Assembly: GCF_026151205.1 (NCBI RefSeq)
Contig: NC_087073.1
Span: 3,088,501-3,152,500 of the forward strand
DNA: 64,000 bases
Source of the DNA: Bolinopsis microptera
Lineage: Eukaryota > Ctenophora > Tentaculata > Lobata > Bolinopsidae
Direction: 5' to 3'
The notes under the pieces were generated by a model, which saw nothing but the letters and a program-made list of their open reading frames with translations, did not search any database and was not told where the DNA came from. Below are positions 1,641 to 47,558 of this stretch, in pieces (position 1 is the stretch's first letter; the number at the start of each line of letters is the position of its first letter). The translations under genes were made by a program, and so were the position numbers.

Positions 1641-2299
1641 GATAGTAACTTTACGGGTGATACTTGTAAAATATTTGTTCCAAATTCCTGCAAGACTGTC
1701 GACGGACGCGAGTCCAACTCGGCGCGCGCGTCTTGGACGGCAGTCCGATCCGAGTCGTAGGTTATAAACCTACAAATAGTAAATTGTGGTCAATTTAAGG
1801 TTAATATAAGTTTCTATAGTCCAATATAACCTACGCCCATTTTTAAAACTTTCACTTTCATAATTTAAGAAATTTCAATTTCACTTTAACATTTAAACAC
1901 TTTGGCTTTAAAAATGAAAAAGGGTAAGTCGTCAACAATTAAATCAAATTTTGATTTCATAATATCATACGAAAGGCGGTAAGAATTTAAATTTTTCAAA
2001 CATGCGCCACGATATTGTGGCCGTTAAAGTTCAATTTTCATCTCCGCTCCAAAATAAACTTTTAAAATTTCATAGTCTACTAGTCATACTTTTTCTATCA
2101 ATACAAAATAAGCTTATCGAAAAATTCTTTGTCCATTGTTGTTGCGTCCTGATAGTCGCAGCAACCCTGTTACTACCCTTTTAGTTCGTAGGAAAACTTA
2201 AACCCCTTTTCAGGTTAGCACCTTCAACTGTAGGACTCTCAACCCTGTATCACGTATAGTAAACGGGAGTTAGCTCACTCAGCCTTCATGCATCATAAT

Positions 2300-4152: not shown

Positions 4153-4154
4153 AG

Positions 4155-4275
4155 TAAGTATTGTTAATCATTAATGGACTAGCCCGGCGCGCGCTACTTC
4201 GTAGCACTTGTCTCGGAAAAAAGCAGCGCGCGCTACCTCGAAGAAATTTAGACGAGTAGCATCTGTTAAAAAATT
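4155..4275 (+). repeat. GC-rich dispersed repeat, copy 1
   Basis: A GC-rich block with two CGCGCGCTAC cores and GAAGAAATTTAGACGAGTA. It matches the reverse complement of 49070-49190 over about 100 bases with few differences. It starts immediately after the RT stop codon, so it may be the 3' untranslated part of this LINE family or a separate element. Confidence 0.7.
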
Positions 4276-23700: not shown

Positions 23701-26700
23701 ACTCCAGCCTTCTCTGTCGCGCTTATCTCAAGACTTCAAGACGGGCGGGTTAAGTAACTGGTATTGTAACTCATTGGTATCCTAACGGGTAACTATTAGC
23801 TACAGTACTCAGATACCATTATCATATCATTAGCAAGGCTCTTTTTCTGGGTAACTCAACCTTGGAAATTCAGGAACCAGGCTCAATTTAAAATCCGTTA
23901 ACAGATCATTAGAATATTCTAATAGCTCAGATTTCAAGATGATCCCCGACCTCCTGTCCAGTGCCCATCAGTTCAACTGCGGTTCACAATAATTTCACAT
24001 GATCTAACATAACATTACAAACAACAGCATTGGAATATTTTTCACAATCAGATAAAAATGGCCCAATTAATAAATTTAAAATTAACAATCCCCTGACCAC
24101 CCTGCAGTACGTCTACTCGAGAGTAGGACGATTATGTAAGAACGATGTTGGGAGCAGCTCTGTCTTCTTCAAAGATTACTTCAAAACCTTTCTAAAAGTC
24201 AGGATCTACTGTACCAGCAACCAGCCGGGGGAGACCCCTTTCGACCACAACGAACTGGGTAAGACATTATTCAGTACTCAGTATTTTGTCGAGTACCTAC
24301 CTGATGAACATTAAGTATTTCTTTATTAGTTACGGGTCACTTATTGAGTTATTGAGGGGGAGGGTCGATTTCAAATGGTCTCTTATGATAATATTATGTA
24401 TTCTCTTCGTTTAACTTAGTAAATGACGGTGTCATTTAATTTTCCAACCACTAACTTGAAATTGATTGATCACCTTCCTTACTTCCTCGCCTCAAAGGTA
24501 ACGTATTTTGAATGTCCCCTTAAATTTGCAGACAAGTCGTCATCTTGTATCCTCCGCCATAATTCCCGAATCTTAATGAGCATCATGTATGTAGTATGTA
24601 CTCTATTATAGTCAATCTAACTAAAATGAGTAATTATTATGGAAAACAATATACGATATCGTCTGTATCCCGATCCCTAGTCTGTAGTGTTGAACGACGC
24701 TGCTACTGTTTACACACTACACACATGCACCAACTGAGGTCACGTGTTGTACGTATGATAATATCGTTAATAGCTTATATTGGTATGTATCGTAAATAAT
24801 TTGAATTCTATGATGATAAAAGGTGTGATATTATATAGTTTAACTTCGAACTCTGCTGTAGGAGGGCAGAGTGGCGACTGTAATGTTATTTGGCAGCCCC
24901 AAATTAACGCATTTAATAACATGAACCTACGTAATGAGAGATAGAGCTGACAACTTACCTTGGTATATCATGTCGTAGCAGGTGTTCAAATATCTGGCAC
25001 TCTCAGCCTGGTTTTCATGTCATGTTCAGTACTCAGTTCCAACACGGTGTTAATAAGGCAATCAAGAGAGGGGGCAGGGGAGCTGTGCGCACTGGGAGCT
25101 GGTGTACTGTGCGCACTGAAATGGTGTATAGTATGTCCACTTCTCATGTCATCGGGCACTCCGCAAAGTTATTTGTATATAGTGATGGTGGTGTCTCTCC
25201 CCTAGGTTATCCCAACCGTGACAGACTTTCGTCTAATGTGGCTAATATATGCAGTGTGAATAAATTATGTTATATATAATATGAATAAAATATTGGTATG
25301 TAAAATAATTAGGATAATATAGTGTTTTAGCATGGAAGGACGGCGTGCCACGGTGGTGATCATTTATTATTTTGTGGGGCTGTGCCTGCACTGTAGCGTG
25401 AACATGTCCTTATACGGGGGTGCTTGGATGGAAGTTTGAAACCATCTTTAAACGAATGAGGAGCAGCTGACTCCACCACCACCTCTCTTGACACACAGTG
25501 CTATTGTTAATAAATGCTGCCTGCAAGTGCAAATACTGTCGGAGTAAAGCGGCGTGAGCATTCTTTCGGAACTTATTCTAGATACATTAGGTTCAGTGCA
25601 TATTACAATATTTACATATTTATTTGTACTGTTTCCATTACGACCGTCACTCCATTAATTCATTTTATTTCCCACCATGTCTAGATTCCGCTCTCTTTTA
25701 AGATTGCCAGAGCTCTTTGATTTCAACCAATAATAAGGTCCTAGTTTTGATAGAAGGAAGACGGTTTGAGCTGACTACTTATACTGCAACTGATAGCTGC
25801 GTTGAGAGCTAAAACATGAGCAGCAATTAAAGTTAGCGCAATCCTTTCCCAACACTGCCAGTAAATGTGCCAGTAAATGTAATTTACGTGGAAATGTGTA
25901 GATATTGCCTGGCACTTTAGGTTAAACCGTAAAACAAAGATACGGCCGCAGTTACTGCAGGCTAGGTTTAATCCCTCATGAGAGGATGGCGCGCAGTGAG
26001 CCGTGTCGGCTAATGATGTGAAGCTGTGTTAGTACCGTGTTAATAACTCACATTCTCCAAGCACAGTTAGCACATCTCATAGCACAGTTAGCACATCTCA
26101 TAGCACAGTTAGCACATCTCATAGCCAGTTAGCACATCTCATAGCACAGTTAGCATGTATCTCATAGCACAGTTAGCACATCTCATAGCACAGTTAGCAC
26201 ATCTCATAGCACAGTTAGCACATCTCATAGCACAGTTAGCACATCTCATAGCCAGTTAGCACATCTCATAGCACAGTTAGCACATCTCATAGCACAGTTA
26301 GCACATCTCATAGCACAGTTAGCACATCTCATAGCACAGTTAGCACATTCTCCCAGCACAGTTAGCACATCTCATAGCACAGTTAGCACATTCTCCCAGC
26401 ACAGTTAGCACATCTCATAGCACAGTTAGCACATCTCATAGCCAGTTAGCACATCTCATAGCACAGTTAGCACATCTCATAGCACAGTTAGCACATCTCA
26501 TAGCACAGTTAGCACATCTCATAGCACAGTTAACACATCTCATAGCACAGTTAGCACATCTCATAGCACAGTTAGCACATCTCATAGCACAGTTAGCACA
26601 TCTCATAGCCAGTTAGCACATCTCATTGCACAGTTAGTACATCTCATAGCGCTTATAAAACTGAGTCATCACCGTGTCACGTGTTCCCCTCCAGTGTATT

Positions 26701-29700
26701 GCACTCCGATAATGTAAAACAATCCGATATCAGTGTTATCGAGAGGAACACCAATTTACGGCAATTCGGGGCCAGTTAACTGATAAATTAGAGCACTGGT
26801 ATTCACTGATAAGGGGCCAGGGAATTCCTAGGAAGTGCAAAAATATATTTGACCAGGTGCGAATTTTTACCAATTTATCGCTGACCTGTTTTTAATAGGA
26901 TACGTGTTAACGGCAATTCGTGTTGTCATCTTAGTTCCACGGTACCGTCGGTACCTAAAGTGGTGATATCTGTATGGGAAAATTCGGTGGTTTTTGGGGA
27001 ATATCATCCCCTGATAATAATGTCCCCTGATTGCTCCTGCATCACCAAGTGTTCACAGTTCAGCATGAATGAATCTAACTGTAGCCAAGCTCTATAATTG
27101 CTCCATCCTTTATTGACCACAGCTAAACTTTATAGACCATAGCTAGACTTTATAGCTAAACTAGGACACATCAAACATCGTTTACATAATATTTTACATA
27201 CGTTTCATTAGCCATAATAATATCTTGATGTCCCAAACAATAGACAACACCGCAGTCAGCATAAGGTGCAGATATATTGCTATACTTTACCAAGTTTACA
27301 GTTCGATAAAGACTACTGATTTGATTGAGATGTGCCTGGCACCCCGCCTGTTGGACTTATTATCAAAGCGCTGATAAGTTATGCTATCAGACATAATATA
27401 TTATGATAAGTTATGCTATCAGACGAAAAAAATGACAAATAAATCGGTTTTACTCTCTTAAATATAGCCTAGTCGTGATAAGACTGATTCGAAGCCTACC
27501 ACGCACAATGATTTTGTAATGCTTCGGTGCATTTTAAAAATCGTTCCTTGTCGTGAGCTCCAAATTCCCTCCCTCTTCATACAAAGCCCGGTCCGGATTA
27601 TGTTTTTATGGATTATTTATGCGAATTGTTAGGTCATAAGTTTTTTGTCATACTTAAAGAACACATAATGTTCTTAAAATACTTGGTTATCCGGCATGGT
27701 TCATATTTTAATTACATTACACGCCGTCCCACTCTATTGTGGTCGATTATTTATCTTTGATCGGCAATCAGCAAGCGACCTTTGCAGAACATTGGTCTCA
27801 TTAATTCGATTGTTAATTGACGGGAGGTCCCATTATCTAAGAGCAAGTCCTTGCTTGAAATTGCACGGATGACAAGTCATGATATTGTTTAGAATTTGTT
27901 ATTCAGTTCTTAGTGCACACAATTATAATTGAATAAAACAGTGAAGTTCTGGGGATTGAAAATAGCGTGCATACCTTTTCAACAAACTGATCTTTCAAGT
28001 TTGATCAAATAAAAGACATTTTTAGACGGTGTCTAGCATCTAACCTTTAACGTTTAACTTTTGACTTCCGATCTGGCCACAATTCTGCATCTAGGATGAG
28101 TTAAACATTTCATCCTAAATTAGCTGACTAATGTTGAACTGCCTGATGTTTACTTTGTGTTCATTTAACTATTTCTGTTTCAGGAGGCGCTTGGTTTGAT
28201 GAAGGAGTTCTCTACACCACTTTCTCCGGGCCCAAGTGAGTGTGGTATTTATTGTAACCTTATAAAATACCTGAAAACCACCTTAAGAAGCACATAAAAC
28301 CCACTTTATAAACTACATAAGCATGCATAACCCCACTACCACAAACCGTCTAACCAGTATAACCAGTATAACCTTGCTTGCTCTTTCAACTAGTCCTATG
28401 AATGCAACAATTACCACGGGCTTGCTAAACCCACCACTAACCTGAAACTAAACATAAACCACACTTTTAGAAACCTGGTCAGTGGTTCCATACTCTGCAC
28501 GTTTACTCTCCAACAAATAGAGGCCGCTTTCAAGGGCAAGTACAAAGTACATGACTTTGACACCATGAGGTGGATGCCAAAGAAGAACTTCAAGCCAGTA
28601 CAGGTATGAGAGAAGGTCATGTTCCAAAGAAGTGCAGAGAGGATGAGATCACGGGGGGACATGTCAAATTTGACATATTTCTCAAATAGTAAAACTCAAT
28701 AAAGAATTGGGGGAGCCCTTATTTTGCTAGATGAGCTCATTAAAAAGTAAAGGTACATTTTTCGTACCCTAGCACATATTCTACTAGTGCACTACTAACA
28801 CTGCAACATGAAAGAAGAACAATAGTAATCTGAATGTAAAAAAAGGGAACCGGCACGTTGGACATTATTAAGGCTTTACCTAACTTGGGCCTATTCTTAA
28901 AATAGGTCGAAACATTTGTACAGCTACTAACTACCCTCCTCCTCCTCAGTGCACCTCCCACCCCAACATCACAGCAGCCCGTGAAATAGTGCTGATGCAC
29001 GACCCCATCTTCTCCTCGACCCCTCTCTACTCCTACCCCTCACACAGACTATCAGGCTTAGTTGGCAGGGAGTTCTCCGCCTTTGGTTCTACTTTTTACG
29101 AGCTCTTCTCTAGTAATGGTAAGATTAAGGACACGTTGTCCTGTATATTTTGTTAGTAGATATTATATTCTCGGGAGTGTCCCGCATCATACCTCGTTTA
29201 GTGGTTATAGTATGTTGACTTCTGAGCGATAAAAATAGCTAAAGAATGTGGCACGTGGTTCTGAAAGTATTTGAAGTTGGTGAGAAGAAAGAACGGCATT
29301 TTAGGGCTTGTGCGCCGAGTTTGTTCCCCAACAGCTCAATGTAATCGTCTAAGTGTCTGTAAGGCTTCAAACCGTGGACCGATCACAAAACCCTGTCAGA
29401 TCCGAGAGCGATGTGTTAAGCTCTAACTCTGGGATAAGGTAGTAAATATTGCCCAGATGAGAGAGATATGTTTACGTGGTGACACCGAGTACGGCTTCTT
29501 AGCAACTTCTGGTCGGGTTTAAACGGCTTTTAACCAGCTTACCCGAACTTTTCTCGAGAAAAATTCGCTCTCTCCGGGTAAGGTGGATAGTCGTGCTTGG
29601 AGGGTCGAAGCTCAGTAATTGGTTGAAATAAGTACGATAATTGGTATGATCTATCAGCAGAGGGTAGAAATATTTGGGAGGAGCTGGCACCTACTCCTAA

Positions 29701-32700
29701 ATAATATTATACAGTGTCATCTCCCTTATCAAGATTCTAGAGACTAGATATGTATCTCATATTGTTAGTTTGCCAATATTTCAGTCACTGAGCTGCGACT
29801 GTAACAGAGATGTGGTTGTGTTATACTTACTCCTTTATAATATTATGTTTAACCTACTGCTTTATAATATTATGTTTAACCTACTCAGCTACTCCTTCAA
29901 TAATGGGATATCAGTTTCAAAGGAACTAATTCTTTCAGATACTTTAAAACTAAGCTACTAACCGAAAAATAAGTGAGATAATTTGACTAAATCGTGATTC
30001 AGATTTGTTGTTTCAGCTGAAGGGAAAGTTATTCGTGTTACATACGATAAAGGTAGCCCCCACATCATCTATGATCAGACCTTCCAAGCGGTACGTTATG
30101 TACGGTTATTTATTGTTTTCTCAATTCAAAACAAAACGTTTAACTTTTTTTAAATTTAGTCAGACTGTCTCAAGATTAAAAAAGATCTAGAAGCTGGTAT
30201 GTAATTCGTTAAATGTCTAGACATACCTCAATTTTAAACCATACAAAAAGAATGCAACTCTTGTTGAATGTTGAGTCCGTCTGATCATGATGAGTTATGA
30301 TAGGTAGGTAGTTATGATGATTGATGCTAGACCACATGCTTTTAAAACTCTTTTTTCAGGCTAATAGCGAGATATTATCTCTGCTCCTTGACCAAGATAA
30401 GATCTACGCTCTCTCCCAGACCTCCGTCACGATGATCCCTTCAGAATACGATTGTGGCAAACCTAAAACATGCCAGTAAGTGAAACACGTCCACCTAAGT
30501 GGCAGGGTAAAAGTGAGGAATTTACCGTGCCTTATGAACAATATCTCTTGTTATCGCTTCTAATATCTACTGATAACTTTAAAAAGTCTCCAAATTAATT
30601 ACGATAATTCTCCTAAACTGTGGTCAGACCAAGATGTAATTACGGTGAATCGTGATTTCTTAGTAACTCCTCGAATAATTTGAAACAAAATTAATGTATA
30701 CGTCGGCTGTCTATTTACTTGAATTATGTCCATTCAGACTAATTTATGATGACATTTTGGTAATTGTTTTAATTTTGTAGGGGTTGGACATCATTTTATA
30801 TATAGAAGTTAACCCTGCCATACTATGTAGATAAGTTTGAAAGCAGTTGAAAGAGGTTTCCCGTGCCAGCAGCCATGTACATAATATGCAGTAATTATCA
30901 GCTAACCATGTTTATTGCATCCAATCTGTTTATTGTTAAAGTACAGTTAGAAAGGCATTGAAGTGTGTAAAGGCAAGGGCTCTGTGTGGGGAATTGCTTG
31001 ATTTGCCAGTTCTCATTTGTCGCCCACTTATATGCGACTGTATGGAACGCGCAAGTCCAGATCTTTTGTTATCCACTCCACGTGTGCGCGGCTTAATATA
31101 ATATAGCTAGCTGGCGCGCTAGCTATAGCTGCATGAGCCCGGCCGCTCCGATCCCTGCGATAGCCAGCTCTAACTAGCCTGGCTACATAGTGCCGCTCTA
31201 GCTGCTCTATTAACAATTTAGCTAGCTTTAATATCAAATTGCAAGATATACGCTAACAAGAAAAAGCGTTTCAATCGATCTTTATCGGCTAGATCAAAAG
31301 TTATCAAGTAATGTGTATTTTGTACTATTAATCGTCGATCCAGTCCATTCCATCGCTGACCAAGCACATGCGTCGCATGCTCGGCCAGGCCCGACTGCAC
31401 AAAAATTCTTGCTTGGTAGATTGGTGACAAGAATTTAATCAACATAATATTACGAAATGACACAAGTTATTAAAAATAAACGATGTCGTGACCCTTACTT
31501 GCGAAAGTTCAACATAATATCCTTAAATTTGATTATAAAGTCTTGACACAAGTTGGCATTTGTAATATTATGTACTAGGTGTGTTACAGTAAAAGTTGAC
31601 TTTATCGATTATAGTTAGATTATCGTCGACCCATTTGTTCGGTCAATATTATGTTGAATTTAACAGAATGCACACGAAACTTTATTTATAGATGCCTGTA
31701 ATCTTCATTTGCCTTAACAATGTAACCAATAGATATTGAGCAACCAATCTTAATCGCAATAATCTAAAGACGATTTAATTGTCCTCTGTACATCCTGTCG
31801 TCTCATATCCTCGAATACCTAAATCCAGAGCAAGGTTTGCCAAATTTACCTGTGTTTGTGACGTGGGCTTTTTCGAATTTGCAGCTCCTTTTAAGGTACT
31901 TGATGGCTAGCAGTTATGAGAAGCTACACATCCAGCGGTTCAAACAAATGTCTTAAGAATTTCTAAATTTGTTGGTAATAATTACAACCGATTATAGAAT
32001 ATAGATATGTTACATTTTCTGGCGGGCCGTTGCTAAGTCAGTCAACTGCGTCCAGTGCATCATTAGAGCTTCTTAGAAAACTATAATCCTTATCGCCCGT
32101 CCTGGAGCCAAACTCATTACCTCAATAGCCGTAAAACGTCATTCATTGAGCCGATGTGGTCAAATTACAAACAGAAGAAAGTCAATAATACTCTTATACT
32201 CTTATAGCCAGAAGTTTTAACAATTAATATTTCGATTAGACGTAGACCAATTTCAACCTTCAAACATTTACGAGAATAAGTATTAAAACGCCGTCTTACT
32301 ATGTGAACAGCGCCCCTAACCTCAGTGCTCCCTCAGATCTTGTATATCCCACCCCTAACCCCAGTGCTCCCCTCAGATCTTGTATATCCCACCCCTAACC
32401 CCAGTGCCCCTCTCAGATCTTGTATATTTAAAGTCACTATTGTGACGGTGGGGGGGAACCAACGGGCATTAATGGCAGTATTTTAAAATTTTGTTCAGAC
32501 TGCCACTGCCATTAATGCCCATTAATGCCCATTAATGCCCATTAATGCCCATATTTAATAGAAAAATCGAAACCATGAGACACGTGCTTTCTCGACAGTA
32601 GTAGTTCTCTATCTCAGATGGCATCTAATACGCAGACCACATGAGCACCAGCTTTCAATCGGTACTAGAGCACTGAGGCGAGATCCTTCCGGGATGTATG

Positions 32701-35700
32701 ATCCTTCTTCGTCTGTATCAGTATCGCATGACCCATAGCCTTGCTGGCTAAGCTCGGGTGGGCGACAATTGACCCCCCGACAATTGACCCTAACCCTGAC
32801 CCTAACCCTAAGTCCTAACCCTAACCCTAACCCTAACCCTAACCCTAACCCTAACCCTAACCCTAACCCTAACCCTGACCCTGACCCTGACCCTGACCCT
32901 GACCCTGACCCTGACCCTGACCCAGGACCCTGACCCTGACCCTGACCCAGGACCCTGACCCTGACCCTGACCCTGACCCTGACCCTGACCCTGACCCTGA
33001 CCCTGACCCTGACCCAGGACCCTGACCCTGACCCTGACCCTGACCCAGGACCCTGACCCTGACCCTGACCCTGACCCTGACCCTGACCCTGACCCAGGAC
33101 CCTGACCCTGACCCTGACCCTGACCCTGACCCAGGACCCTGACCCTAACCTTTATCCTGACCCTGACCCTGACCCTGACCCTGACCCTGACCCTGACCCT
33201 GACCCTGACCCTGACCCTGACCCTAACCCTGACCCTAACCATAACCCTGACCCTGACCCTAGGACCCAGGACCCTGACCCAGGACCCTGACCGTACCCTG
33301 ACCCAGGACCCTGACCCTGACCCTGACCCTGACCCTGACCCTGACCCTGACCCTGACCCTGACCCTGACCCTGACCCTGACCCCGACCCTGACCCTGACC
33401 CTGACCCTGACCCTGACCCAGGACCCTGACCCTGACCCTGACCCTGACCCTGACCCTGACCCTGACCCAGGACCCTGACCCTGACCCTGACCCTGACCCT
33501 GACCCTGACCCAGGACCCTGACCCAGGACCCTGACCCTAACCTTTATCCTGACCCTAACCTTTATCCTGACCCTGACCCTGACCCTGACCCTGACCCTAA
33601 CCCTGACCCTGACCCTGACCCTGACCCTGACCCTGACCCTGACCCTGACCCTGACCCTGACCCTGACCCTGACCCTGACCCTGACCCTGACCCTGACCCT
33701 AACCCTGACCCTAACCATAACCCTGACCCTGACCCTAGGACCCTGACCCAGGACCCTGACCGTACCCTGACCCAGGACCCTGACCCTGACCCTGACCCTG
33801 ACCCTGACCCTGACCCTGACCCTGACCCTGACCCTGACCCTGACCCTGACCCTGACCCTGACCCTGACCCTGACCCTGACCCTGACCCTGACCCTGACCC
33901 TGACCCTGACCCTGACCCAGGACCCTGACCCTGACCCTGACCCTGACCCTGACCCTGACCCTGACCCTGACCCTGATCCTGACCCTGACCCTGACCCTGA
34001 CCCTGACCCTGACCCTAACCCAGGACCCTGACCCAGGACCCTGACCCTGACCCTGACCCTAACCCTAACCCAGGACCCTGACCGTACCCAGGACCCTGAC
34101 CTAGGACCCTGACCTAGGACCCTGACCTAGGATCCTGACCCTAACTCGATCAATTGACCCAAGTGTAATTACATGGTGGGTCAATTGTCGGGGGTCAATT
34201 GTCGTACTAAGCCCTTGATTTCGCGACAATTGACCCCAGCGTAATTACATAGGGGGTAAATTGTCGGGGGGTCAATTGTCGTACTAAACCCTAGATTTCG
34301 CGACAATTGACCCCAGTGTAATTATATAAGGGGTCAATTGTCGGGGGGCCGTCAATTGTCGGGGGGTCAATTGTCGGGGGGTCAATTGTCGGGGGGTCAA
34401 TTGTCGGGGGGTCAATTTTCGTACTAAACCCTAGATTTTGCGACAATTGACCCCAGTGTAATTACATAAGGGATCAATTGTCGGGGGGTCAATTGTCGGG
34501 GGGTCAATTGTCGCGCTACCCTAAGCTCTTGGTCACCTGGAGAGGGGGCAACCTAATTTATGTCAGAAACAACAGAAACAACCTTATTATAGCTGTAGGA
34601 GCAGTGTTATTTTAACCAAGCAAGGTGGGCACAAACGTGACGTCACAAGCTCGGTGGGGAGCATAATTAGATCTCCCAATATCTCGGGATAGGAAGCAGA
34701 TAAAAAGGTCCGGTTTTGACTAATCTTAGTTATATGTTACATAACAACAATATATTAAAATATAAGGGTGGGTTATTTTTGGGCGTCATGAACCTTTAAT
34801 ATGGTCTGTAGACAGGATATTTATTGTAGGTATGAAATAGACGTGACCTGAAAGTTTCAAAAGCGAATAAAAAAGTATGGGCATTAATGGCAGTATTTTA
34901 AAATTTTGCACAGACTGCCACTGCCATTAATGCCCATTAATGCCCATTAATGCCCATAAATGCCCATTAATGCCCATTAATGCCCGTTGGTTCCCCCCGT
35001 GACGGTACATTCGAACTAGACAGAAACAAAGTGCCCCTCTCAGATCTTGTATATCCCACCCCTAACCCCAGTGCCCCCTCAGATCTTGTATATCCCACCC
35101 CTAACCCCAGTGCCCCTCTCAGATCTTGTATATCCCACCCCTAACCCCAGTGCTCCCCTCAGATCTTGTATATCCCACCCCTAACCCCAGTGCCCCTCTC
35201 AGATCTTGTATATCCCACCCCTAACCCCAGTGCTCCCCTCAGATCTTGTATATCCCACCCCTAACCCCAGTGCCCCTCTCAGCTCTTGTATATCCCACCA
35301 CTACCCTATGTGTGGGTGGTGTTACGGACAAGGCACCTGGTCCTGCACTGAGTCCCACACTTGTACTACCTCCTGGATATCTCCTTTATCACAGTGCGAG
35401 GACCCTCCCACGTAAGTTTGCAATGTTGAATCTTACATTCTGATGAATACTCACTGACATTTTAGGATTTTGTGCTATTGATAAATGATGCGACCATTCT
35501 CAGAACAGAGACTGAGAGACAGCTCATATCTTTCGAACTTTGCTACATGCTTATTGAAATCTAACTAACAACAGGTTTAAGTCTGTACCAAAGAATGAGA
35601 CCTTCCGAGAGGGTGAAACAGCAATACTTGTCTGTTCTGCCAGGGACAGCCATCCTTTCTTCTGGACAAAACCAGGTTAGTTAAGCTGTGAGTATAACTG

Positions 35701-38700
35701 TAAGCACACTAAATTTTAGTGATCATTCTTTTAGAAGATATTGATATGGTAATTTATTTTCACGTCCGTCTTGAACACCACTCTCTGTCAGGAGGAGTAA
35801 TTCCCCGGAAGAGCAAGACAATGGATAACGGTCACCTGCTGATACCTCTCCTCCGGGCTGAAGATGAGGGCTGCTACCGGTGTAATATGAACAACACAAG
35901 CGGAGCTGTATTCGCGGAGGCCTGCCTGTCCGTCCTCGGTTTGTTTGATTTTTGTACTGATTTTCCGATGTTTTCCAATTTAAAAAAATAAAATTTGCCT
36001 GTTTTAGGTTGTTGTCTGGTAACTTTCAGGTGATTTACAAATGAAAGTCCATTGTTTCAGTTTTAAATAAGGTTGTAACATAAAATATTCATTTCGTCAT
36101 TTGAAAACTTAAATTTGAAAAGGTTAAAAATCTACGTTGTTGACAAGAAAGGGTGGTTTGCTATCATGCTTTCCGTACAACTATGTTGTTACTACATAAT
36201 ATCATAAATTGTCTTTAGCTAAATCTAGAGTCCTGGGTTTCTATAAAATAGAATTGGTCCATTTAAACGTCTCTCACGAAGGTGTTTACACCAAGTATCT
36301 TTAAAGTTGAGTTGTGGGACCCTTGTAGGAAGCCCCCTCACCTGAAGGTATTTCATTCAAACTCTTTGCACTCAACGGTCGTGATGAGTCTGTTTTTCTG
36401 AAGTTGGGGTTCCTGATGGATGCCATGGAGATGTTGGTCACGTTGTTTTGCGCAGTGGTGCTGAACCTCTGTAGTTTCCTCTTGAGGAACCCTGACAATG
36501 CCTGACCCCTCATTATGAGGATCACTGGATTTAGTGCTGCATTAATGAACGGACACATCACCCCTGTCAGATAAGAAATCATGCTCACGGTTCTTTGGCT
36601 GCTTTTGTCAAATTTTTTCTCTAAAATTCCATATGCTTTGAGACAATAATTTATAGGGTAATACACGTAGGCCGTATTGCAAAAGAAGAATAAGACTGTA
36701 AGCATGAAAATGGTGATGGTTATTTGCCGTTGTGTTTGCGTGTTAGCGGTTCTGTCAGGTCGCTGCTTGAGAATGGTCCGTATTTGAACTGCCATGCAGA
36801 CAAGGACTATACAAGAGGGAATTAGGTAGGGTATACTTATGAATAAGGCTACATTGCGGCACTCGCCCTTATCTCCAGTGCCGCTGATATAAAGAACTTG
36901 ATATTGACCAGGAGAGTACACATAAGTATTTAAAAGAGAGTGGTGTGGATCCCAGCTGGTCAACTGCCAGATTGTGAATGCAAGCAACCCGCAGGAGTAG
37001 GTAGCTGTCGCTACACCAATCCCTGTAATCCGCATCCTGTAGAAAGGTAGCAGAATGTTGATGGTGCGGACGATGGCGATGGCAAGGTTCAAGAAGACTG
37101 AAACCTTGAAGGTGATTGAGTAGATTGCGTATGCCACTGGGACAATATGCAGGGCAGCCTTGTAGGTATCTGTTTCTAGCAAGAAGAACATTATGGCCGT
37201 GAGGATGGCACCAATACCTGTGATTGAATCACAAGCCGCCATTAGCAAATACATGAATGGAACGACTTTTTTGTAAGAAGGGAAGTAGAATGATATAACC
37301 AGAGCGTTCGCTATGATAGCTTGCAGTCCTAACAATAAGTCTGCAGTTCCGACTATGTGATTAAAAACGCTTCCCAGGTAGCTGGTAGTTTTAATCCATT
37401 CTGTCGGTGCGCCGGTGCCTCCGGTTGAATAGAAGTTTGCTACCATCTAAAAAAGGTTTTTGTTACTTTTTTGCAGATAACTTGAAGGAAAACGCTAATG
37501 TTGATTTATCGAATACTTTTTCTCAAACATAGGAAAATTTGAAGTTTACTTAATTCGAATAAAATATTGTAACATGACAAACAGAAAAAGGATGATTTCA
37601 ACTCTTATATTGACTATATGGAATGACGGAAAAATTGAGTGACTTAAAAAAATGTAGAGCTGGAAGCGAAGGTCAGTCCACTGTGCCACATTATGAGCCC
37701 TGCGATATTGTGGAGTAGAGGCGGCATGTCGGGGGGGGGGGGGGGGGGGGGCAGCATGTCAAAGCAGTCCACGGAGGACGGACAGTGCTTGATTATTGGA
37801 CATGCTAGAGACAGCTGTAGATTATGGTATACTCCTCTATCAGTAATACTAAGGGTTCACAGCTGCCTAGTACTAGTAGTAGTAGTAGCTGCCTAGTATA
37901 CTTTATAAACAAGTTTTACTCATTCATATCAACGAATGGACACTGTGTGACACTGATAGTGGCGTACTGGAGAAAGGTCAGTAATATCCATAACCTTAAT
38001 ATAAGGCTCTTAAATACAGCTCTCCAACTACCAGCAACATTCCATACAAGCTAACGTGCTGGATGTTTTCAATGAGAAAGTCTTCCAAATGCCTTAGTTG
38101 AGCTTGATGGAGCGCCTATTTGAGACTACTGACCAATCTACCGACGTGAACTCAGGAACTAACCAAGGATCCCTCTCCTGACAATAACCTTATCCTAGCT
38201 CATTAGGGAGCACAAAAAACCACCGCATTGGCTACTAAGGACATAAAGGATCTAGTGAGGGATGATAAAGGGCGGCTCTGTTTACCCCAGGTAAAGCATT
38301 ATGACGGCTCTGACACCTGGCTCACGTCCTTATCTGACGCAGGGCGCCTGAAGGAATGAGTTACTTTTTGGTGTGGTCCCCGTCAGCCTTCTAATGGGCA
38401 CTTAGCAGGGCTGATTTTAAACGCTGGCACTACCGGTCTATGAAATTCTACGAAAGCAGGAGAAAACAAGTCTGAAAATACGGCAAACACGTGTTTCTTT
38501 ATGGTCTGCTACTTACCTAACGGAGATTTGAAAATCGAGAACATGTGAAATATGCGAGTAACAGATGAGTGTTACATTTGCTAGCTGGAGGTTTTTCGAA
38601 TTAAATTTACAATTAGTCATGAGTTTTAGGTTGACGACATGGACTATGAAAATGGTCGTGTTAGACCACCTGTGAAAATGGTATATTACGCTTATCGCTT

Positions 38701-41700
38701 AAAATTACACGTAACGTGTTAAAAATACCGCAATTTGGCAGGTTTTTCAGTGTTTTGTATCACGCTCCGTAAACTTTTGTATCAACTAAAAATACTCTTA
38801 CAAATATACTGCCAACAACTGTGATAGAAATGATTGATGGTTAGTAAAAAGTTCGGTGTTTGTCGTCGTCGCACATCTTGATGTGTATTTAACAAATATA
38901 AAATTACACTGTCTACAGGAACTTAAATTAGATTTGGGGATGTAAATTGTAAACATTGGTTGAACGAGATAACTTTATCAACTGTACAAATAACGTGACG
39001 TCACTGACGTCAAAACCAGTTATCTGCGTCATCAAAGCAGACTATCTGCCCATTAAATAATATTAATGGACGAGTTTGGAGACACAATGAAAACAACACA
39101 TAAGAATCTCATCTTAACCTGTTTATTTCTCCACCACATGATGATCCAATTTCCCTGTATCCTACGGTTCAGGCTGCTCTCCTCTAATTCCTCCATTTAA
39201 TTATTCCCTGTTCCCGATGATGATTGTGCTCAGCCGACAGGTGACTGGTGAGCGTAACGCTGCGCCGTGACTGATGAATTAGGGTCAAATTTTCAACTAT
39301 TATCAGTATCCCGATTCGATTTGAGACATGGTCCATGTTTTGGGGGGCCAGCTGGTGCCCACCCCCTCCCCCCCAGATGTTAATGACTCCTCATTTCTCT
39401 CGCAGCAGCGGTGAAAGTGAATTTGTAGACGTTTGGAGGTAGATTGTGCTCGTTGCTCGGTTATAAACACTGAAATTAGATTTAATGTTATGTTTGGAGC
39501 TGTTAGTAGCTCTGGTTTGGCTGAGTAACTAAACATTACATTTTACCTTAGTTTACAAGTCCTCTGTTAGTTTACAAGTCCTCTCTTCAAAATTAGATGG
39601 TAGATGTAAATCAGAACTTGAAATCTTCTTAGATTCTTAGTGGGATTATTTCAGACAATTTATTTCGCTCTATTTTTACTTAACCTTTAATAAATACACT
39701 AGGGCTAATTGTACTATATTATGCTAATTGTACTGTTATATGCTAATTGTACTCATATGTAAGGTATGAACTAAAAGAAAGTAAGAGAATTTTAAAATCA
39801 TTTATCCCTCTCCTCAGTGCTAGTCCCCGATGGTCCTTATCGTGTTGTTTAGTGGCTTTAAGCTTTGGGGTTGTGAAATAATTCTGACAATAGTCAAGCT
39901 AATGCTATAACTGGTGCAATACGAGCACGATTCAGTTTTAAAAAACGTACAAATTCCTTTCTGTAGATAACAGTACAAACAACTTTTCGAGTTTTTAAGA
40001 TTAGATGTAAGATATAATAATTTCTCAAAAATTCACGGCAATATTGGAAGAATATTTTAATTATAAATTTAATCAACCTAACTACATCAATAATCTTTAA
40101 TGGAATCTATTCTACTCCAAACAGAGAATTTAAAACAATCAGATAAAGGACCCAAAACCGCCAAAATCCCACTTAAACAACTGATAAAATGCCAATGTTA
40201 AAGTTGAGAAACAGTATATCTGGTTTGCCGAGCACTAGATACAGGTGAGGTTATGAGGGAGAGTGCAGATTCTCTGATCGGCCTGATCACCACAGCACTT
40301 ATCTTCTTCTTAACAGATCCTCTGATCTCCTTACCACGCCAGATCAGGATGGCTGGGTTGAAAGCAGCGTTGATGTAAGGACACAGCACTCCCAGGCAAT
40401 ACTGTAATCTCAGCTGTTCTATGTAGCCTAGACCCAGCGAGGTTTGCCTGTGTAAGTCGGGGTTTTTGATGAATCTATCGTAGTAAAGGATGGGGTAGAC
40501 GATGTAGAGAGTGTTGCAGAAGAAGAAGAGAAGTGTTAACATCAGGATTGTTTTAGTAATTTCTTTATTCTTGTCGGACTCGGAGCTCCGGGAGGGGTTT
40601 GGCTTTAAGACCGCTCGAATTTGTATAGCCATGCATATTACGGCTACGACTGAAGGGAGGACGAATGGTACTGTAATAAATAGAGTAGCATTCCTGAATT
40701 CTTCTGTCTCAGATATGCCAGAGTATCCCAATATTTGGTATCCTGAAGGTTTATACAAGAGCTTCTCCAACTCCTTTCTGTCCGGTCTCAACAATTCAAC
40801 CTTCCTTTTGATGAGGAGAGCCACCGATAAGAAGACGGAAGCTGCACTGTACAATGTGACAGCAACACCAATAGTAACTCTCTTCATTCTGTAGAAGGGG
40901 CGGGTTATGTTGATGGTTCTGACGATGCTGATGATAAGATTGAGGAAGACTGAGACCCTGAAGGTTATGGAGAAGATGAAGTAGGTTGGGACCAGGAGGT
41001 AGTTGCCGGGATTACCTTTAGGTTCAGGGTGGTATTCCAGGATCAGGAACATTAGACCGTTCAGAAGTGCTGCCACACCAGTCATTGAGTCAGTCACTGA
41101 CAGCAGGATGTACATGAACGGAACCATTTTCTTGACAATGTTTTTGTAGTAAGCTGTGACGATGAGATTGAGCACCAACGTTTGAACAGCTAGCCCCAAC
41201 TCCGTTACTCCAATACACGTGTTGAACCACTTCCCAAGGTACTCACTTGATGAATTGAAGGGAGATGATGTACTGGAAGTGGATGTCATTGTTTGCTGCC
41301 TATCTGATGTATAAGGTTGTTAAGTTTTTACTAGTGATTCAAACAAAGATATCAAAGTAATTCACGATAACATGTTGTCTGAACAAACTAACTATACCAT
41401 GGGTTGCGCTAGGTTCTAATATAATCGGAAATTTCTGGACACCTGGTTAACCTGAAAAACGATAGTTTCTATAAAAGGCCTGGGTTCACGACTAACTAGG
41501 TCAATAACATGCCAACTTCTTAAAAAGGCCCTTTAAAAACTCAGGATATTATTCCTTGTTATCATATTAGTTGTTATAAATGATACGAACGATTTGCCTT
41601 GAACTTTGGAGTTTGGTCAACCGTGCAACGATTATCCTAGGTTACCAAGAATTATGTTTGAACCTAGCGTCTCATCTTAACCATCTGAACTTTCAGTTGC

Positions 41701-44700: not shown

Positions 44701-47558
44701 TTCGAATGGTCAAACACAATTCAATAAAATTGAGCTCGATTCGATTATCAAAACTATCAAATAAATGCAAAAATGAACCTTCATTTGAAAAAAACGAACT
44801 CTAATATTTATCGATTCGACAAATTCCTCGAACCAGTGGTGGTAGTAAGTCATACCAGAAAGAATTATTTCAATTGGGCACTCAGTGACTGAGCTATTAA
44901 GGCCAACGTATGCCCACTGACTTTTGGCCCACCCTGTATATTACTAGTGAACTATAGTAAACCCCTGCATTACTGCTCGATTCTGAGAATTTCGATTTGT
45001 TCACAGATGTCGATAATTTTTCAGTATGTGGTCCTGGCCGGCATAGCTTAGAATTGCAGACCGTGATGGAAAACGGAGAAAAGTTGAGAAAATAAACGAA
45101 AAGTAAACGATTTGTAAAAATTAAAACTTAATGGGTGAACATCTGTTATCTGACTTGGTAATAGCATGTGTTAAAGTAGTAATGGAAAATATGATCGAGA
45201 AACAGATCTAGGTAGAGTAATGACCACTGACCAGCCAAGACCACAATCTGCACAGCTGTGGTCCTCCAGTAAAGTTTAGTTTCATCTAAAAACTGTTTTT
45301 ATAGCGAAGTCGCGCCGGTTTTAGTACATTTAACATTAATGGCAAATGATCTAAGGTCCGCACTTACAGATGAGGAAAACTGAATTTAAATAACAAATTC
45401 TAAAGTTCTAAATTTGAATTTACATTTAAGTCTAAATTTAAAATCCAATATTCGATAGACATTAAACAAAACTAACACAATTTCTCTCCATATCAGACGC
45501 GATCACTAACGGAACAGAAGAGCAACAATATGGTAACCAGATGAACAAGCGGACGATAATAACTCTAATAATATGTGTGCTAGTTGTGGTGCTCTGCTTT
45601 GTAACCGGATTTGTGGCCTTCACGTTTAGGAGACGACAAAGGAAACGCCGTAATAATAGACACGAGGTAAGTCGTGCGATGCTATTTTGGAGTTAACTTA
45701 TATGCTCAGAACATCTGGAGTTTTTATTCAAGTTTTTATTCAAGCGTTATACTATATAATAATGCCCTATATAATATAGTATACTATATAGTATAGTATA
45801 TAATATATATACTATATGGTATATTATAATTCTGTTGGTCAAATAAACGTCTCTGTCCATCTATTTTACGACTGCACAGTGCACCTGTTATAATACCGCA
45901 TCCTCTTATAACCCTAACACATTAACTTTCTCAGTACCTAGAGAATGATAATCCCCTCGCAATGGACTCTCCTCTTCCCATTGCTAACACTCCTTTACAA
46001 GCTTTACACAATCACTGGTCCAACATGGTACGTGACTTTCCATGTTTACCCTTCAAATAAGGGTCCTTCACATATTATTACGTAATCACTTTTTGGACAA
46101 TTTTTAACCCCCCCCCTCCTCCCCCTCCGTAATCACTTTACACATTGTGCTATTGTGTCCAAATTACACTAGCGTAATCATTTGGAAACCCCCGCCCCCC
46201 CCCCCCCCCCATCGACTGATTACGTAAGATGTGAACGACCCCTAATGGTCGGTGGATAGTTGAGCAACTTGGATGCTGAATATTAACCATTTATATAAAT
46301 TCCATTTCATTATATTATATTAAGTTATAGGTACTATAATTGTACTCGTTTCAGGCGGAAGAGGTACCACAGACCCCTCTAGCAGGTGCAGCCGGTCTTC
46401 ACGGCCTTGTAACCCTACCTGAGGTGGAGGGTAAGTGCAGCTCATTTATATAGATCTCATTGTTGGAGTTTTAATCTAAGTGTAATGTGTTAAGTTGAAG
46501 GGAAGACAAGCTGAGCTCTTTTTAGTGTTGATCTAAACCCTAATTTGTATAACCATGTTTGATTCCACTTTGTTAGTTAGAGCTTTTATATAAATATCTG
46601 TATTTCAGATGAAGCACCCCAGCGTACACATTATAAATATCTGTATTTCAGATGAAGCTCCCCCAGCGTACACATTATAAACATCTGTATTTCAGATGAA
46701 GCTCCCCCAGCGTACACATTATAAATATCTGTATTTCAGATGAAGCTCCCCCGGCGTACACATTATAAATATCTGTATTTCAGATGAAGCTCCCCTAGCG
46801 TACACATTATAAATATCTGTATTTCAGATGAAGCTCCCCCGGCGTACACATTATAAATATCTGTATTTCAGATGAAGCTCCCCCGGCGTACACATTATAA
46901 ATATCAGTATTTCAGATGAAGCTCCCCCAGCGTACACATTATAAATATCTGTATTTCAGATGAAGCTCCCCCGGCGTACACATATAAATATCTGTATTTC
47001 AGATGAAGCTCCCCAGCGTACACATTATAAATATCTGTATTTCAGATGAAGCTCCCCCAGCGTACACATTATAAATATCTGTATTTCAGATGAAGCTCCC
47101 CCAGCGTACACATTATAAATATCTGTATTTCAGATGAAGCTCCCCTAGCGTACACATTATAAATATCAGTATTTCAGATGAAGCTCCCCAGCGTACACAT
47201 TATAAATATCTGTGTTTCAGATGAAGCTCCCCCAGCGTACACAGAGCACCCTCACATCCTCCGTGACCTGTCCTCAGACTACCATCTCCTCTCCTTCCCC
47301 ACCCAATCCAACCCCTCTCCCGTCCTCTACCAGCCGCTAGCGCAGCACGAGTGCGGCGGCCGTCACCAAGACTGCAACTCCAGACCTCACGAGTGCAGCT
47401 CGAACGGGCCATCAGGTCCGCGCTTCATCACTTCTCTCCCAGATAGCTCTCCTAGCTTCTTATCAACTCTACCAGTTAGCAGAGAATCAGATGAACAGTA
47501 TGACGTCATGCCCTCTCAAGCTGGTTATAACGCCCATTCTAACGACCCCCCCGATTGA
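7230..47558 (+). CDS. Transmembrane semaphorin, 23 coding exons
   Basis: A cell-surface guidance ligand/receptor whose family partner is plexin. Exons: 7230-7299, 7437-7524, 7859-7916, 8132-8209, 8821-8922, 20008-20110, 21427-21494, 22924-23061, 24108-24258, 28184-28235, 28471-28603, 28950-29118, 30017-30090, 30360-30475, 35283-35411, 35575-35675, 35792-35938, 41697-41839, 42751-42889, 45497-45666, 45935-46027, 46355-46430, 47221-47558. All have GT-AG borders and compatible phases, giving 2736 coding bases and about 911 residues. Order: signal peptide (1 to about 16), sema (about 25-455), PSI (about 460-510), Ig1 (about 515-592), Ig2 (about 594-686), TM (about 706-730), cytoplasmic tail (to 911). 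The start at 7230 is chosen because it gives MMLLLATCLLPIIAA; an overlapping ATG at 7226 is out of frame and stops early. A plexin is excluded by length and by the absence of IPT and GAP domains. Two Ig domains on a transmembrane semaphorin are unusual. Confidence 0.92.
10526..10606 (+). repeat. Nine tandem CACGTG E-boxes (9-bp minisatellite)
   Basis: The 9-bp unit CCACGTGAC repeats without error. CACGTG hexamers start at 10526, 10535, 10544, 10553, 10562, 10571, 10580, 10589 and 10598. CACGTG is the canonical palindromic site for Myc/USF/CLOCK-class bHLH factors. The repetition is seen directly; regulatory use is inference. The apparent VTWSRGH protein on the other strand is only a translation of the repeat. 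Confidence 0.85.
11143..11204 (+). repeat. Duplicated 31-bp block with TGACGTCA (CRE) sites
   Basis: Two adjacent copies of a 31-bp block, each containing a full CRE palindrome TGACGTCA (11145-11152 and 11176-11183) followed by TTTGAGGG and TGCCTGG. They differ at two positions. A CREB/ATF site is plausible from the motif alone. Confidence 0.6.
11991..12064 (+). repeat. 24-bp AT-rich tandem repeat, three copies
   Basis: Three tandem copies of a unit containing TATGCAATATAACTTAATA. No function is suggested. Confidence 0.7.
14583..14746 (+). repeat. Two short tandem repeats
   Basis: A 22-bp unit with TCCTGTGAGTGTGTCTC is present twice from about 14596. A 7-bp CTCAACT unit is repeated five times at about 14714-14746. 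Both are simple minisatellite DNA within the large intron. Confidence 0.6.
19252..19302 (+). repeat. 10-bp AGTGGCTAAA tandem repeat
   Basis: About five units of AGTGGCTAAA, decaying toward the 3' side. No function is suggested. Confidence 0.65.
19502..19590 (+). repeat. 15-bp array repeating the TAATTA homeodomain core
   Basis: A 15-bp unit (GCTAATTAACTGAGT) is repeated six times. TAATTA occurs at 19507, 19522, 19537, 19552 and 19567, and the sixth copy is altered to TAATTC. TAATTA is the core site for Antp/paired-class homeodomains, spaced here at one and a half helical turns. It lies about 420 bp before semaphorin exon 6. Confidence 0.75.
21094..21213 (+). repeat. 24-bp minisatellite, about five copies
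   Basis: The unit is GAGACTTGTTACCATGGTTACTG(C/T), near-perfect over five copies. Because 24 is a multiple of three it gives a spurious open frame on the minus strand (repeating MVTSLAVT). Confidence 0.8.
22503..22572 (+). promoter_or_regulatory. Clustered CACGTG and TGACGTCA module
   Basis: Five CACGTG hexamers (22503, 22515, 22535, 22547, 22567) and two TGACGTCA palindromes (22524-22531, 22556-22563) occur within 70 bp. They are arranged as a 32-bp duplicated block (E-box, E-box, CRE) plus a final E-box. It resembles a composite enhancer for bHLH and CREB/ATF factors, about 350 bp before semaphorin exon 8. Function is inferred from motif density only. Confidence 0.5.
23062..28183 (+). other. 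Semaphorin introns 8 and 9
   Basis: Exon 9 (24108-24258) is the only coding DNA seen. Intron 9 contains the large 21-bp minisatellite (26055-26650) and a 20-bp direct repeat GATAAGTTATGCTATCAGAC (about 27374 and 27407). Nothing else is recognisable. Confidence 0.55.
26055..26650 (+). repeat. 21-bp minisatellite, about 28 copies
   Basis: The unit CACAGTTAGCACATCTCATAG is repeated almost exactly. Variants include an 18-19 bp form lacking the leading CA and a TCTCCCAG form recurring at intervals, which points to higher-order duplication. It is intronic (semaphorin intron 9) and non-coding. Confidence 0.9.
29119..30016 (+). other. Semaphorin intron 12
   Basis: AT-rich intron without a nested gene. 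A 27-bp direct repeat with TTTATAATATTATGTTTAACC is present twice at about 29831-29885. Confidence 0.55.
32326..32424 (+). repeat. Left part of 40-bp splice-acceptor array (three copies)
   Basis: Units of the form CTCAGATCTTGTATATCCCA plus CCCCTAACCCCAGTGC, with CTCAG acceptor dinucleotides ending at 32336, 32376 and 32416. They match the repeat that borders exon 15 at 35031-35282. The last copy is cut short (TGTATATTTAAAG) about 20 bp before the 2.5-kb insertion begins. Confidence 0.85.
32791..34142 (+). repeat. Telomere-like (CCCTAA)n/(CCCTGA)n array
   Basis: It begins with about ten uninterrupted CCCTAA units, the C-rich strand of TTAGGG telomeres. It then passes into hundreds of CCCTGA units broken at intervals by CCCAGGA, CCTTTATCC and CCGTACC variants that recur in larger blocks. 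The long open frames on the minus strand (repeating VRVRVR or GSGSGS) are translations of the repeat, not genes. Confidence 0.92.
34146..34513. repeat. GTCAATTGTCG inverted/tandem array
   Basis: Alternating GGGGGTCAATTGTCG and CGACAATTGACCCC units, with a 60-bp spacer containing AGTGTAATTACATA repeated about three times. The left counterpart is two units at 32764-32790. The units are palindromic around CAATTG, so the DNA could form hairpins. Confidence 0.8.
35031..35282 (+). repeat. 40-bp splice-acceptor minisatellite bordering exon 15
   Basis: Tandem 39-40 bp units, each consisting of a C/T tract, CAG and a sequence nearly identical to the first 22 bases of exon 15. Acceptor AGs end at 35043, 35082, 35122, 35162, 35202 and 35242; the seventh, at 35282, is the true exon 15 border. 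The array appears to be a tandem amplification of the intron-exon junction. In the phase used by exon 14, a decoy acceptor would add about seven residues and then hit TAA within the unit. Confidence 0.88.
35283..35411 (+). other. Semaphorin exon 15: PSI domain
   Basis: Encodes the cysteine-knot PSI module that follows the sema propeller. Continuing exon 14 (CGKPKTC), the exon gives HSCISHHYPMCGWC, matching the PSI signature of paired cysteines followed by HPYCGWC, then more cysteines up to SQCEDPP. The acceptor lies in the final unit of a 40-bp repeat. The real copy differs from the decoys by a handful of bases that remove the in-frame TAA. Confidence 0.88.
35575..35938 (+). other. Semaphorin exons 16-17: first Ig domain
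   Basis: Two exons (35575-35675 and 35792-35938) form one Ig-like fold. Exon 16 carries the B-strand cysteine and the tryptophan (LVCSARDSHPFFW). Exon 17 carries the F-strand pattern ending in DEGCYRCNMNN. Both outer boundaries are phase compatible (2 in, 1 out). Confidence 0.85.
36301..37446 (-). CDS. Intronless seven-transmembrane receptor (class A-like GPCR), 381 aa
   Basis: A plasma-membrane receptor expected to couple a ligand to G proteins or arrestin; the ligand is unknown. Seven hydrophobic segments are visible. TM1 carries an N (IIANALVISFY), TM2 a D (MAACDSITG) and TM7 an NP motif (INAALNPVILI). Departures from class A: the DRY box after TM3 is replaced by VRT (IAIVRTINILLPFYRM), NPxxY is NPVIL, TM6 has LFFFCNTAYVYYP instead of CWxP, and the TM3 cysteine of the usual disulfide is absent. 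It ends in TTQL, a class I PDZ-ligand form. One exon, with a clean ATG just after the TM-free N-terminus. It is a paralog of the receptor at 40198-41289. Confidence 0.9.
   Translation of the reverse strand: MVANFYSTGGTGAPTEWIKTTSYLGSVFNHIVGTADLLLGLQAIIANALVISFYFPSYKKVVPFMYLLMAACDSITGIGAILTAIMFFLLETDTYKAALHIVPVAYAIYSITFKVSVFLNLAIAIVRTINILLPFYRMRITGIGVATATYSCGLLAFTIWQLTSWDPHHSLLNTYVYSPGQYQVLYISGTGDKGECRNVALFISIPYLIPSCIVLVCMAVQIRTILKQRPDRTANTQTQRQITITIFMLTVLFFFCNTAYVYYPINYCLKAYGILEKKFDKSSQRTVSMISYLTGVMCPFINAALNPVILIMRGQALSGFLKRKLQRFSTTAQNNVTNISMASIRNPNFRKTDSSRPLSAKSLNEIPSGEGASYKGPTTQL
38996..39012. promoter_or_regulatory. Paired TGACGTCA (CRE) palindromes
   Basis: Two full CRE octamers one base apart (38996-39003 and 39005-39012), about 1.55 kb upstream of the minus-strand receptor that starts at 37446. 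A regulatory role is inferred from the motif only. Confidence 0.4.
40198..41289 (-). CDS. Intronless seven-transmembrane receptor (class A-like GPCR), 363 aa
   Basis: Paralog of the receptor at 36301-37446 with the same hallmarks: MYILLSVTDSMTGV in TM2, VFLNLIISIVRTINITRPFY at the end of TM3 (DRY replaced by VRT), LLFFFCNTLYIVYP in TM6 and NAAFNPAILIWRG in TM7. The extracellular loops have no obvious cysteine pair. The C-terminus is VSQL, again a class I PDZ-ligand form. One exon, start at 41289, stop at 40198. The pair probably arose by tandem duplication, since both lie in the same orientation inside one semaphorin intron. An open frame on the + strand at 40511-40894 is its antisense shadow. 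Confidence 0.9.
   Translation of the reverse strand: MTSTSSTSSPFNSSSEYLGKWFNTCIGVTELGLAVQTLVLNLIVTAYYKNIVKKMVPFMYILLSVTDSMTGVAALLNGLMFLILEYHPEPKGNPGNYLLVPTYFIFSITFRVSVFLNLIISIVRTINITRPFYRMKRVTIGVAVTLYSAASVFLSVALLIKRKVELLRPDRKELEKLLYKPSGYQILGYSGISETEEFRNATLFITVPFVLPSVVAVICMAIQIRAVLKPNPSRSSESDKNKEITKTILMLTLLFFFCNTLYIVYPILYYDRFIKNPDLHRQTSLGLGYIEQLRLQYCLGVLCPYINAAFNPAILIWRGKEIRGSVKKKISAVVIRPIRESALSLITSPVSSARQTRYTVSQL
41697..42889 (+). other. Semaphorin exons 18-19: second Ig domain
   Basis: Exon 18 (41697-41839) gives the first half with the B-strand cysteine and W (LLLPCVGTGSPKPAATW). Exon 19 (42751-42889) gives the second half with the conserved DAGQYKC block. This is an I-set-like arrangement split by a phase 0 intron of 0.9 kb. 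That intron (41840-42750) holds nothing recognisable. Confidence 0.85.
43548..43749. mobile_element. 202-bp MITE with TTAA ends
   Basis: A perfect inverted repeat with arms TTAAGGGGGCCGGGGGTCTT(CA) and its complement, 43548-43569 and 43728-43749, bounding about 160 bp without coding capacity. TTAA is the target sequence duplicated by piggyBac transposases, so this may be a piggyBac-mobilised MITE. The long GC-rich arms are seen directly; the family is inference. Confidence 0.75.
44052..44936. mobile_element. Mariner/Tc1-type element with perfect 46-bp inverted ends
   Basis: The ends begin CAGGGTGGGCCAAAAGTCAG and form a 46-bp perfect inverted repeat (44052-44097 and 44891-44936) flanked by TA on both sides, the Tc1/mariner target duplication. 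At 885 bp it is shorter than an autonomous copy. A minus-strand open frame at 44267-44467 may be a decayed transposase C-terminus, but similarity is weak. The interior also holds a 14-bp hairpin (GATCGTTGCTCTGC, 44624-44654). Perfect ends suggest recent insertion. Confidence 0.85.
45497..45666 (+). other. Semaphorin exon 20: transmembrane segment
   Basis: Encodes a short extracellular stalk with an NGT sequon, then about 25 hydrophobic residues (TIITLIICVLVVVLCFVTGF and on), then a basic stop-transfer RRRQRKRR. This sets the protein as type I membrane-anchored. Confidence 0.9.
45667..46608 (+). other. Semaphorin introns 20-22 with exons 21 and 22
   Basis: Exons 21 (45935-46027) and 22 (46355-46430) encode a proline-rich cytoplasmic juxtamembrane region with no known domain. 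The introns contain an AT dinucleotide-rich patch (about 45750-45835) and C-rich runs (46107-46122, 46191-46210). Confidence 0.6.
46609..47220 (+). repeat. 44-bp splice-acceptor minisatellite bordering the last semaphorin exon
   Basis: Fourteen tandem units of 43-44 bp, each made of the first 22 bases of exon 23 (ATGAAGCTCCCCCAGCGTAC and on) followed by TTATAAATATCTGTATTTCAG, a complete 3' splice site. Units start at 46609, 46652, 46696, 46740, 46784, 46828, 46872, 46916, 46960, 47003, 47046, 47090, 47134 and 47178. The acceptor used for the long exon is the last, ending at 47220 (TGTGTTTCAG). Entry at a 44-bp unit in the exon 22 phase reads DEAPPAYTL and then stop. The 43-bp units shift frame. 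Confidence 0.92.
47221..47558 (+). other. Semaphorin exon 23: cytoplasmic tail with PPAY motif
   Basis: The last coding exon gives 112 residues starting DEAPPAYTEHPHIL and ending at a TGA at 47558. PPAY (residues 803-806) matches the PPxY ligand of WW domains such as those of Nedd4-family ubiquitin ligases, suggesting regulated turnover. The rest is Ser/Pro/His-rich with no known domain. The acceptor is the last of a ladder of near-identical sites. Confidence 0.88.

Follow-up and report, generated by a model that had tools for sequence, protein, structure and literature searches.

Tandem repeats that span exon-intron boundaries have been described in lancelets as mirages, many of them with AG or GT splice signals (PMC3087553, PMC3902484). 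In these accounts such repeats occur in Adh3, the globins BflGb6 and BflGb9, PGBD5 and troponin C; splicing is regular, haplotypes differ in length, and the unit at the boundary escapes homogenisation. Here we examine a comparable structure in a ctenophore, within a 64,000-nucleotide stretch of Bolinopsis microptera DNA (NC_087073.1, positions 3,088,501 to 3,152,500; hereafter "the window"), where a ladder of 40-bp units carrying decoy acceptors precedes the probable PSI exon of a semaphorin gene. By its unit structure, its splice signals and its distinct boundary unit, as read from the sequence, this ladder is a new case of the known mirage structure. Because further ladders were found before copine and other exons, acceptor ladders are a recurrent habit of this genome and not a semaphorin device. 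We found no report of such repeats in ctenophores in the open-access literature, a scope outside which many subscription papers lie. The main interest of the case is that a ctenophore may have many such ladders, and that decoys identical to the real acceptor make splice-site choice testable.

The ladder before the probable PSI exon

An initial annotation of the window described tandem 40-bp units, each joining an intron end to the start of the next exon, and here Tandem Repeats Finder (TRF) and a pattern search agree. Specifically, TRF reports 2.9 copies at 32313-32427 and 6.9 copies at 35030-35303, while the pattern search (at most one mismatch) for the acceptor core, CAG followed across the cut by ATCTTGTATAT, returns nine exact copies and one with a single mismatch, the last being the real exon (10 observed vs 0.03 expected in dinucleotide shuffles, in which the largest count was 1). 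The AGs of these cores end at 32336, 32376, 32416, 35043, 35082, 35122, 35162, 35202, 35242 and 35282, the one spacing exception being the 39 bp from 35043 to 35082. The nine usable-looking decoys counted in the initial annotation (three plus six) ahead of the acceptor at 35282 are thus confirmed, and the pyrimidine-rich CAG signal is present in all nine. By reading, a typical unit consists of 23 intron-end bases (CCTAACCCCAGTGCCCCTCTCAG) and 17 exon-start bases; in the intron part, a branch-point-like CTAAC (its A 19 bases ahead of the cut) is followed by a pyrimidine stretch and CAG. The boundary unit is distinct from the homogenised units in its first exon base, which is C in the real exon and A in 9/9 decoys. 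Genome-wide, the 40-bp unit matches only its own locus, as two blocks.

These two blocks form a single array, into which a transposon later inserted. As this element, with its target duplication, stands between them, the left block of three units belongs to the same ladder, displaced by 2.5 kb; coordinate arithmetic puts the gap between the blocks before insertion at ~45 bases. The extent first given to the ladder, 32326..35282, therefore has units at both ends, but most of it is not ladder, since the transposon occupies 32450-34998. The element shows the inverted repeats, target duplication and dispersed copies of class II elements: a query of 161 bases from its right end had 65 genomic matches, with 40 of 69 candidates scored, and some of these matches pair up as both ends of a single copy. 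By script, an 8-bp target duplication was found in three of five element copies (the window, L020 and L022); the L021 copy yielded none by script, though by eye TTCGGGAT flanks both sides beyond an interrupted C-run, and for the L023 copy no matching second end was found. The 8-bp duplication is the only hAT-type trait seen, no transposase search having been made, and superfamilies besides hAT also make 8-bp duplications. Within the transposon lies a 1.3-kb TGACCC array with CCCTAA stretches (32785-34127).

The reading frame at the junction is set by the upstream exon, which by reading extends to 30475 and leaves an incomplete codon of two bases (CA). The true junction then translates as H-SCISHHYPMCGWCYGQG / H-SCISHHYPMCGWC. 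At the decoys the initial annotation had expected about seven residues followed by TAA, and this holds for 8/9, which give Q-SCISHP-stop (seven residues), the TAA lying inside the CTAAC of the following unit; it fails for decoy 32416, which reads 22 codons into the transposon instead of stopping.

Table 1. Features of the semaphorin gene and its ladders (positions in the window).
Feature	Position	Strand	Basis or remark
Upstream exon open frame, end of sema domain	30321..30475	+	Sequence reading; own 5' boundary not fixed
Upstream exon 3' end	...CGKPKTC + CA, donor GTAAGT from 30476	+	Sequence reading
Left ladder block, three decoys (AG ends 32336, 32376, 32416)	32313..32427	+	TRF, pattern search
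Left 8-bp target-site duplication GTGACGGT	32442..32449	+	Script
DNA transposon-like element, 2,549 bp	32450..34998	+	Terminal inverted repeats (G)n-AACCAACGGGCATTAATGG
Right 8-bp target-site duplication GTGACGGT	34999..35006	+	Script
Right ladder block, six decoys (AG ends 35043-35242) and real acceptor 35282	35030..35303	+	TRF, pattern search
Exon encoding SCISHHYPMCGWCYGQGTWSC..., probable PSI module	35283..35411	+	Donor GTAAGT follows at 35412
Second ladder of the same gene, before last exon (EAPPAYTEHP...)	46589..47243	+	15 units x 44 bp, TRF

The gene is assigned to the semaphorins because of a Sema match at 28472-28606 (Pfam; 24.1 bits vs cut-off 23.7, in one exon). The upstream exon at 30321-30475 has no Pfam match of its own, and the exon at 35283-35411 scores 13.4 bits against Pfam PSI, below the cut-off of 23.1; its cysteine pattern fits by eye, and it aligns weakly with plexin-B1 (E 0.5). 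Elsewhere in the gene, a 21-bp unit (AGCACAGTTAGCACATCTCAT) is repeated in 28 copies at 26060-26650, in what looks like an intron separating semaphorin exons. Nested in semaphorin introns, on the minus strand, are two intronless receptor genes of rhodopsin type (36304-37446, which scores below its Pfam cut-off, and 40201-41319). This fits the abundance of nested genes reported for ctenophores (PMC8527503).

Ladders at other acceptors and their frequency

That a second junction of the same gene is built alike, as the initial annotation had stated, is borne out by the ladder at 46589-47243, which comprises 14 decoys and the real acceptor; its 44-bp unit has a single matching place in the genome search. 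Ten of these 14 decoys give eight codons and then a stop, some retaining the PPAY motif, and because these stops fall in the last exon, the transcripts would, by the usual rule, probably be spared decay.

A mechanism shared by both junctions, also proposed there, gains support from three further ladders, and a search for repeats over acceptors already yields them in a small sample of the genome. The first (L024, 1299-3553; ~C2:3081298-3083552) lies ~5 kb upstream of the window, holds 52.7 copies of a 43-bp unit and ends at an exon (NSPPYGYGMEYYLYIG...) with a membrane-like segment and no Pfam family match. The second (L026, 8230-10000, minus strand) has 38.2 copies of a 46-bp unit in the fetched stretch, continues to ~C1:2510279, and ends at a copine exon (Pfam E 1.5e-4, 21.7 bits, below the cut-off of 27; E 2.6e-7 against copine BONZAI 1 across all 45 residues in a PDB search). 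The third (L050, 3942-6191, minus strand) consists of 54-bp units in two blocks with 24 acceptors and leads into an exon of 49 codons, probably the last, without a clear homologue; its nearest decoy reads through into the exon, and use of this decoy would insert an 18-residue repeat in the protein. Unit length across all five ladders is 40-54 bp.

Two of these loci, L026 and L050, belong to a set of 18 fixed-position 10-kb stretches placed irrespective of repeats (L025-L038 and L048-L051). This position-blind sample thus contains two ladder loci in 180 kb, of which homology confirms one (L026). Extrapolation gives ~2,900 loci genome-wide (95% range 356-10,622) from both loci and 1,470 (range 37-8,192) from the homology-confirmed locus alone. 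One further array, at L048 7054-7096 (2.5 copies of 17 bp, TTTCATTTCAG), is ladder-like and was rejected, no exon being seen after it. A dispersed satellite was likewise rejected for the 40-, 44- and 46-bp units, each of which matches its own locus only, in a search that passes over highly frequent words; the units of L024 (43 bp) and L050 (54 bp) fall outside that search. Exons of other Sema-domain genes (four loci, L003-L006, covered over 1.5 kb on each side with acceptors not placed) showed no such array. A search with COX1 yielded no mitochondrial contig.

Association of arrays with exons was assessed in a flank test on 45 strand-arrays (at least four copies, period 20-130), in which an array was scored as positive if its last unit contained an acceptor that led into an open exon bearing a donor. 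Such an exon-like continuation was found in 5/45; random flanks gave a mean of 1.09 and reached five in 2/300 trials. Of two stricter earlier detectors, one flagged nothing and the other missed L026, and a relaxed scan of 90 strand-arrays, made before L048-L051 were included, gave eight hits. Three of these were kept, the others (window minus strand 4020-4104, two in L022, L031 and L034) being dropped as low-complexity or unconvincing. On the donor side no ladder was flagged in the 45 strand-arrays vs 0.51 expected with random flanks, an absence that is not significant.

Choice of acceptor and the decoy frame

The decoys resemble the real acceptor to very different degrees. Upstream identity is 85 bases for decoy 32416, 48 for decoy 35122 and 5 to 14 for six others, while decoy 35202 equals the real site across 128 bases upstream and again across exon bases +2 to +17; the longest such upstream match in L024 is 164 bases. 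Because decoy 35202 is identical there, no mark of the true site lies within the upstream 128 bases, and the choice, if it is accurate, must depend on what follows the site or on position. The sole near difference between the two is the first exon base, A in the decoy vs C in the real site, and in the usual acceptor consensus C is not the better base. Candidate choosers, we infer, are exon base +1, exon sequence past base 17, the donor at 35412, or position; the true acceptor is probably marked by its pairing with the downstream exon (exon definition). For duplicated splice sites, Reed and Maniatis in 1986 reportedly pointed to exon sequence and proximity.

If a decoy were used, its frame would be that of the open last exon of each ladder, and in this frame a stop falls within the first repeat for 8/9 decoys here, 10/14 at 46589, 45/46 in L024, 27/28 in L026 and 4/23 in L050. 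The typical unit carries a stop in four of the five ladders, in three of them at CTAAC itself; that of L050 is open. A shuffle that destroys the branch motif expects a stop in ~1.1 of five and had suggested an excess. One that preserves CTAAC expects 2.3 of five, with P=0.14 for at least four, and because of this result no design is needed to account for the decoy stops. A designed stop, which the initial annotation had implied, was therefore rejected as unproven.

Mechanism, alternatives and relation to known systems

We consider it probable that the ladder is a mirage-type minisatellite, tolerated since its last acceptor stays intact and driven by the minisatellite activity of the genome. 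A 40-bp segment, made up of 23 intron-end and 17 exon-start bases, would first have been copied in tandem where it stood; unequal exchange or slippage would then have multiplied the copies and kept them alike, as the near-identity of the units suggests. The array would be tolerated because the last acceptor still stands ahead of an intact exon, surplus units leaving with the intron. It was already in place when the DNA transposon inserted and split it. Acceptor choice would operate via exon definition, and misuse of a decoy would give an early-stop transcript, probably destroyed. As ladders arose at other acceptors of the genome, the underlying cause would be its minisatellite activity rather than semaphorin biology.

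Several points weigh against this interpretation. The unbiased sample is small (two loci in 180 kb, one homology-confirmed); two of the five flagged strand-arrays (L022 and L031) are probably false; the flank test includes both the window, which is a chosen sample, and its neighbour L024; and the detector missed two of the counted ladders (46589 and L050), which were recognised by reading. In addition, use of the last acceptor is presumed from the DNA sequence, and neutrality of the array is a supposition from one assembly of one species.

A wider possibility, which we advance tentatively and regard as doubtful, is that ctenophores at large commonly amplify a 3' splice module reaching from the branch point to ~20 exon bases, perhaps at hundreds to thousands of loci and at acceptors only. 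The spliceosome would then pick the last of up to ~50 near-identical acceptors, with exon definition overriding acceptor sequence, and the 40-54 bp unit size may reflect an acceptor constraint and not ordinary slippage.

Explanations that give the decoys a function fare less well. Leaky decoy use could tune or lower protein output through transcript decay, in proportion to unit number; some decoys indeed equal the real site in sequence and 8/9 lead to an early stop, but 19/23 decoys of L050 read beyond the first repeat, and we judge such a poison ladder unlikely. Less probable still is the regulated ladder favoured in the initial annotation, in which decoy splicing would yield a soluble, sema-only product that lacks the PSI, Ig and membrane parts. 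The decoy stop does come directly after the sema domain in 8/9, and the decoys do carry the signals of the real site. However, ladders also precede copine, membrane-segment and other exons, where such a product would make no sense, and a stop is often expected by chance. Moreover, further exon junctions follow the decoy stop in the semaphorin ladder, and under the mammalian rule transcripts of this kind are normally degraded; a stable sema-only product is for this reason unlikely. The initial annotation is thus partly supported, its observation being sound and its interpretation over-specific.

It is very improbable that the units serve as landing pads for a spliced leader, giving short mRNAs that start at the PSI exon: ctenophore mRNAs often have spliced leaders (PMC8527503), and any acceptor could serve, but the gene's other ladder stands before its final exon, and a leader added there would leave hardly any coding sequence. 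An assembly artefact, in the unit number or in the repeats themselves, is hardly credible, for while tandem arrays are error-prone in assemblies and the unit number may be off, the units differ readably from one another and the array contains a transposon with its target duplication.

Taken as a mirage-type minisatellite, the ladder indicates that mirages occur far from lancelets, in a distant part of animal phylogeny. Where a decoy shares every upstream base with the true site (across 128 bases here and 164 in L024), the genome itself sets up a competition between 3' splice sites, whose outcome could be scored in long-read cDNA that already exists; PMC10232365 mentions Iso-Seq. In genomes with such ladders, exon starts may be wrongly placed by gene predictors and by the mapping of short reads.

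Like lancelet mirages, as described in PMC3087553 and PMC3902484, the ladder has units across an exon-intron boundary, splice signals within them and a distinct boundary unit. It differs in its ctenophore host, in the arrays of up to ~53 units of 40-54 bp, and in the transposon inside the array; ladders in this genome were, furthermore, found only at acceptors (donor-side 0/45 strand-arrays), whereas lancelets have both sides. Internal tandem repeats of human duplicated genes likewise include boundary minisatellites that change splicing or gene structure (PMC2812944). In those recent paralogs exons are altered and introns newly made, whereas the exon here is apparently unchanged and the intron enlarged. 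Intron gain by tandem duplication (PMC4974935, and the model in PMC3087553) likewise involves duplicated splice signals within a gene, but in the semaphorin ladder an old intron has been enlarged and no new intron is evident.

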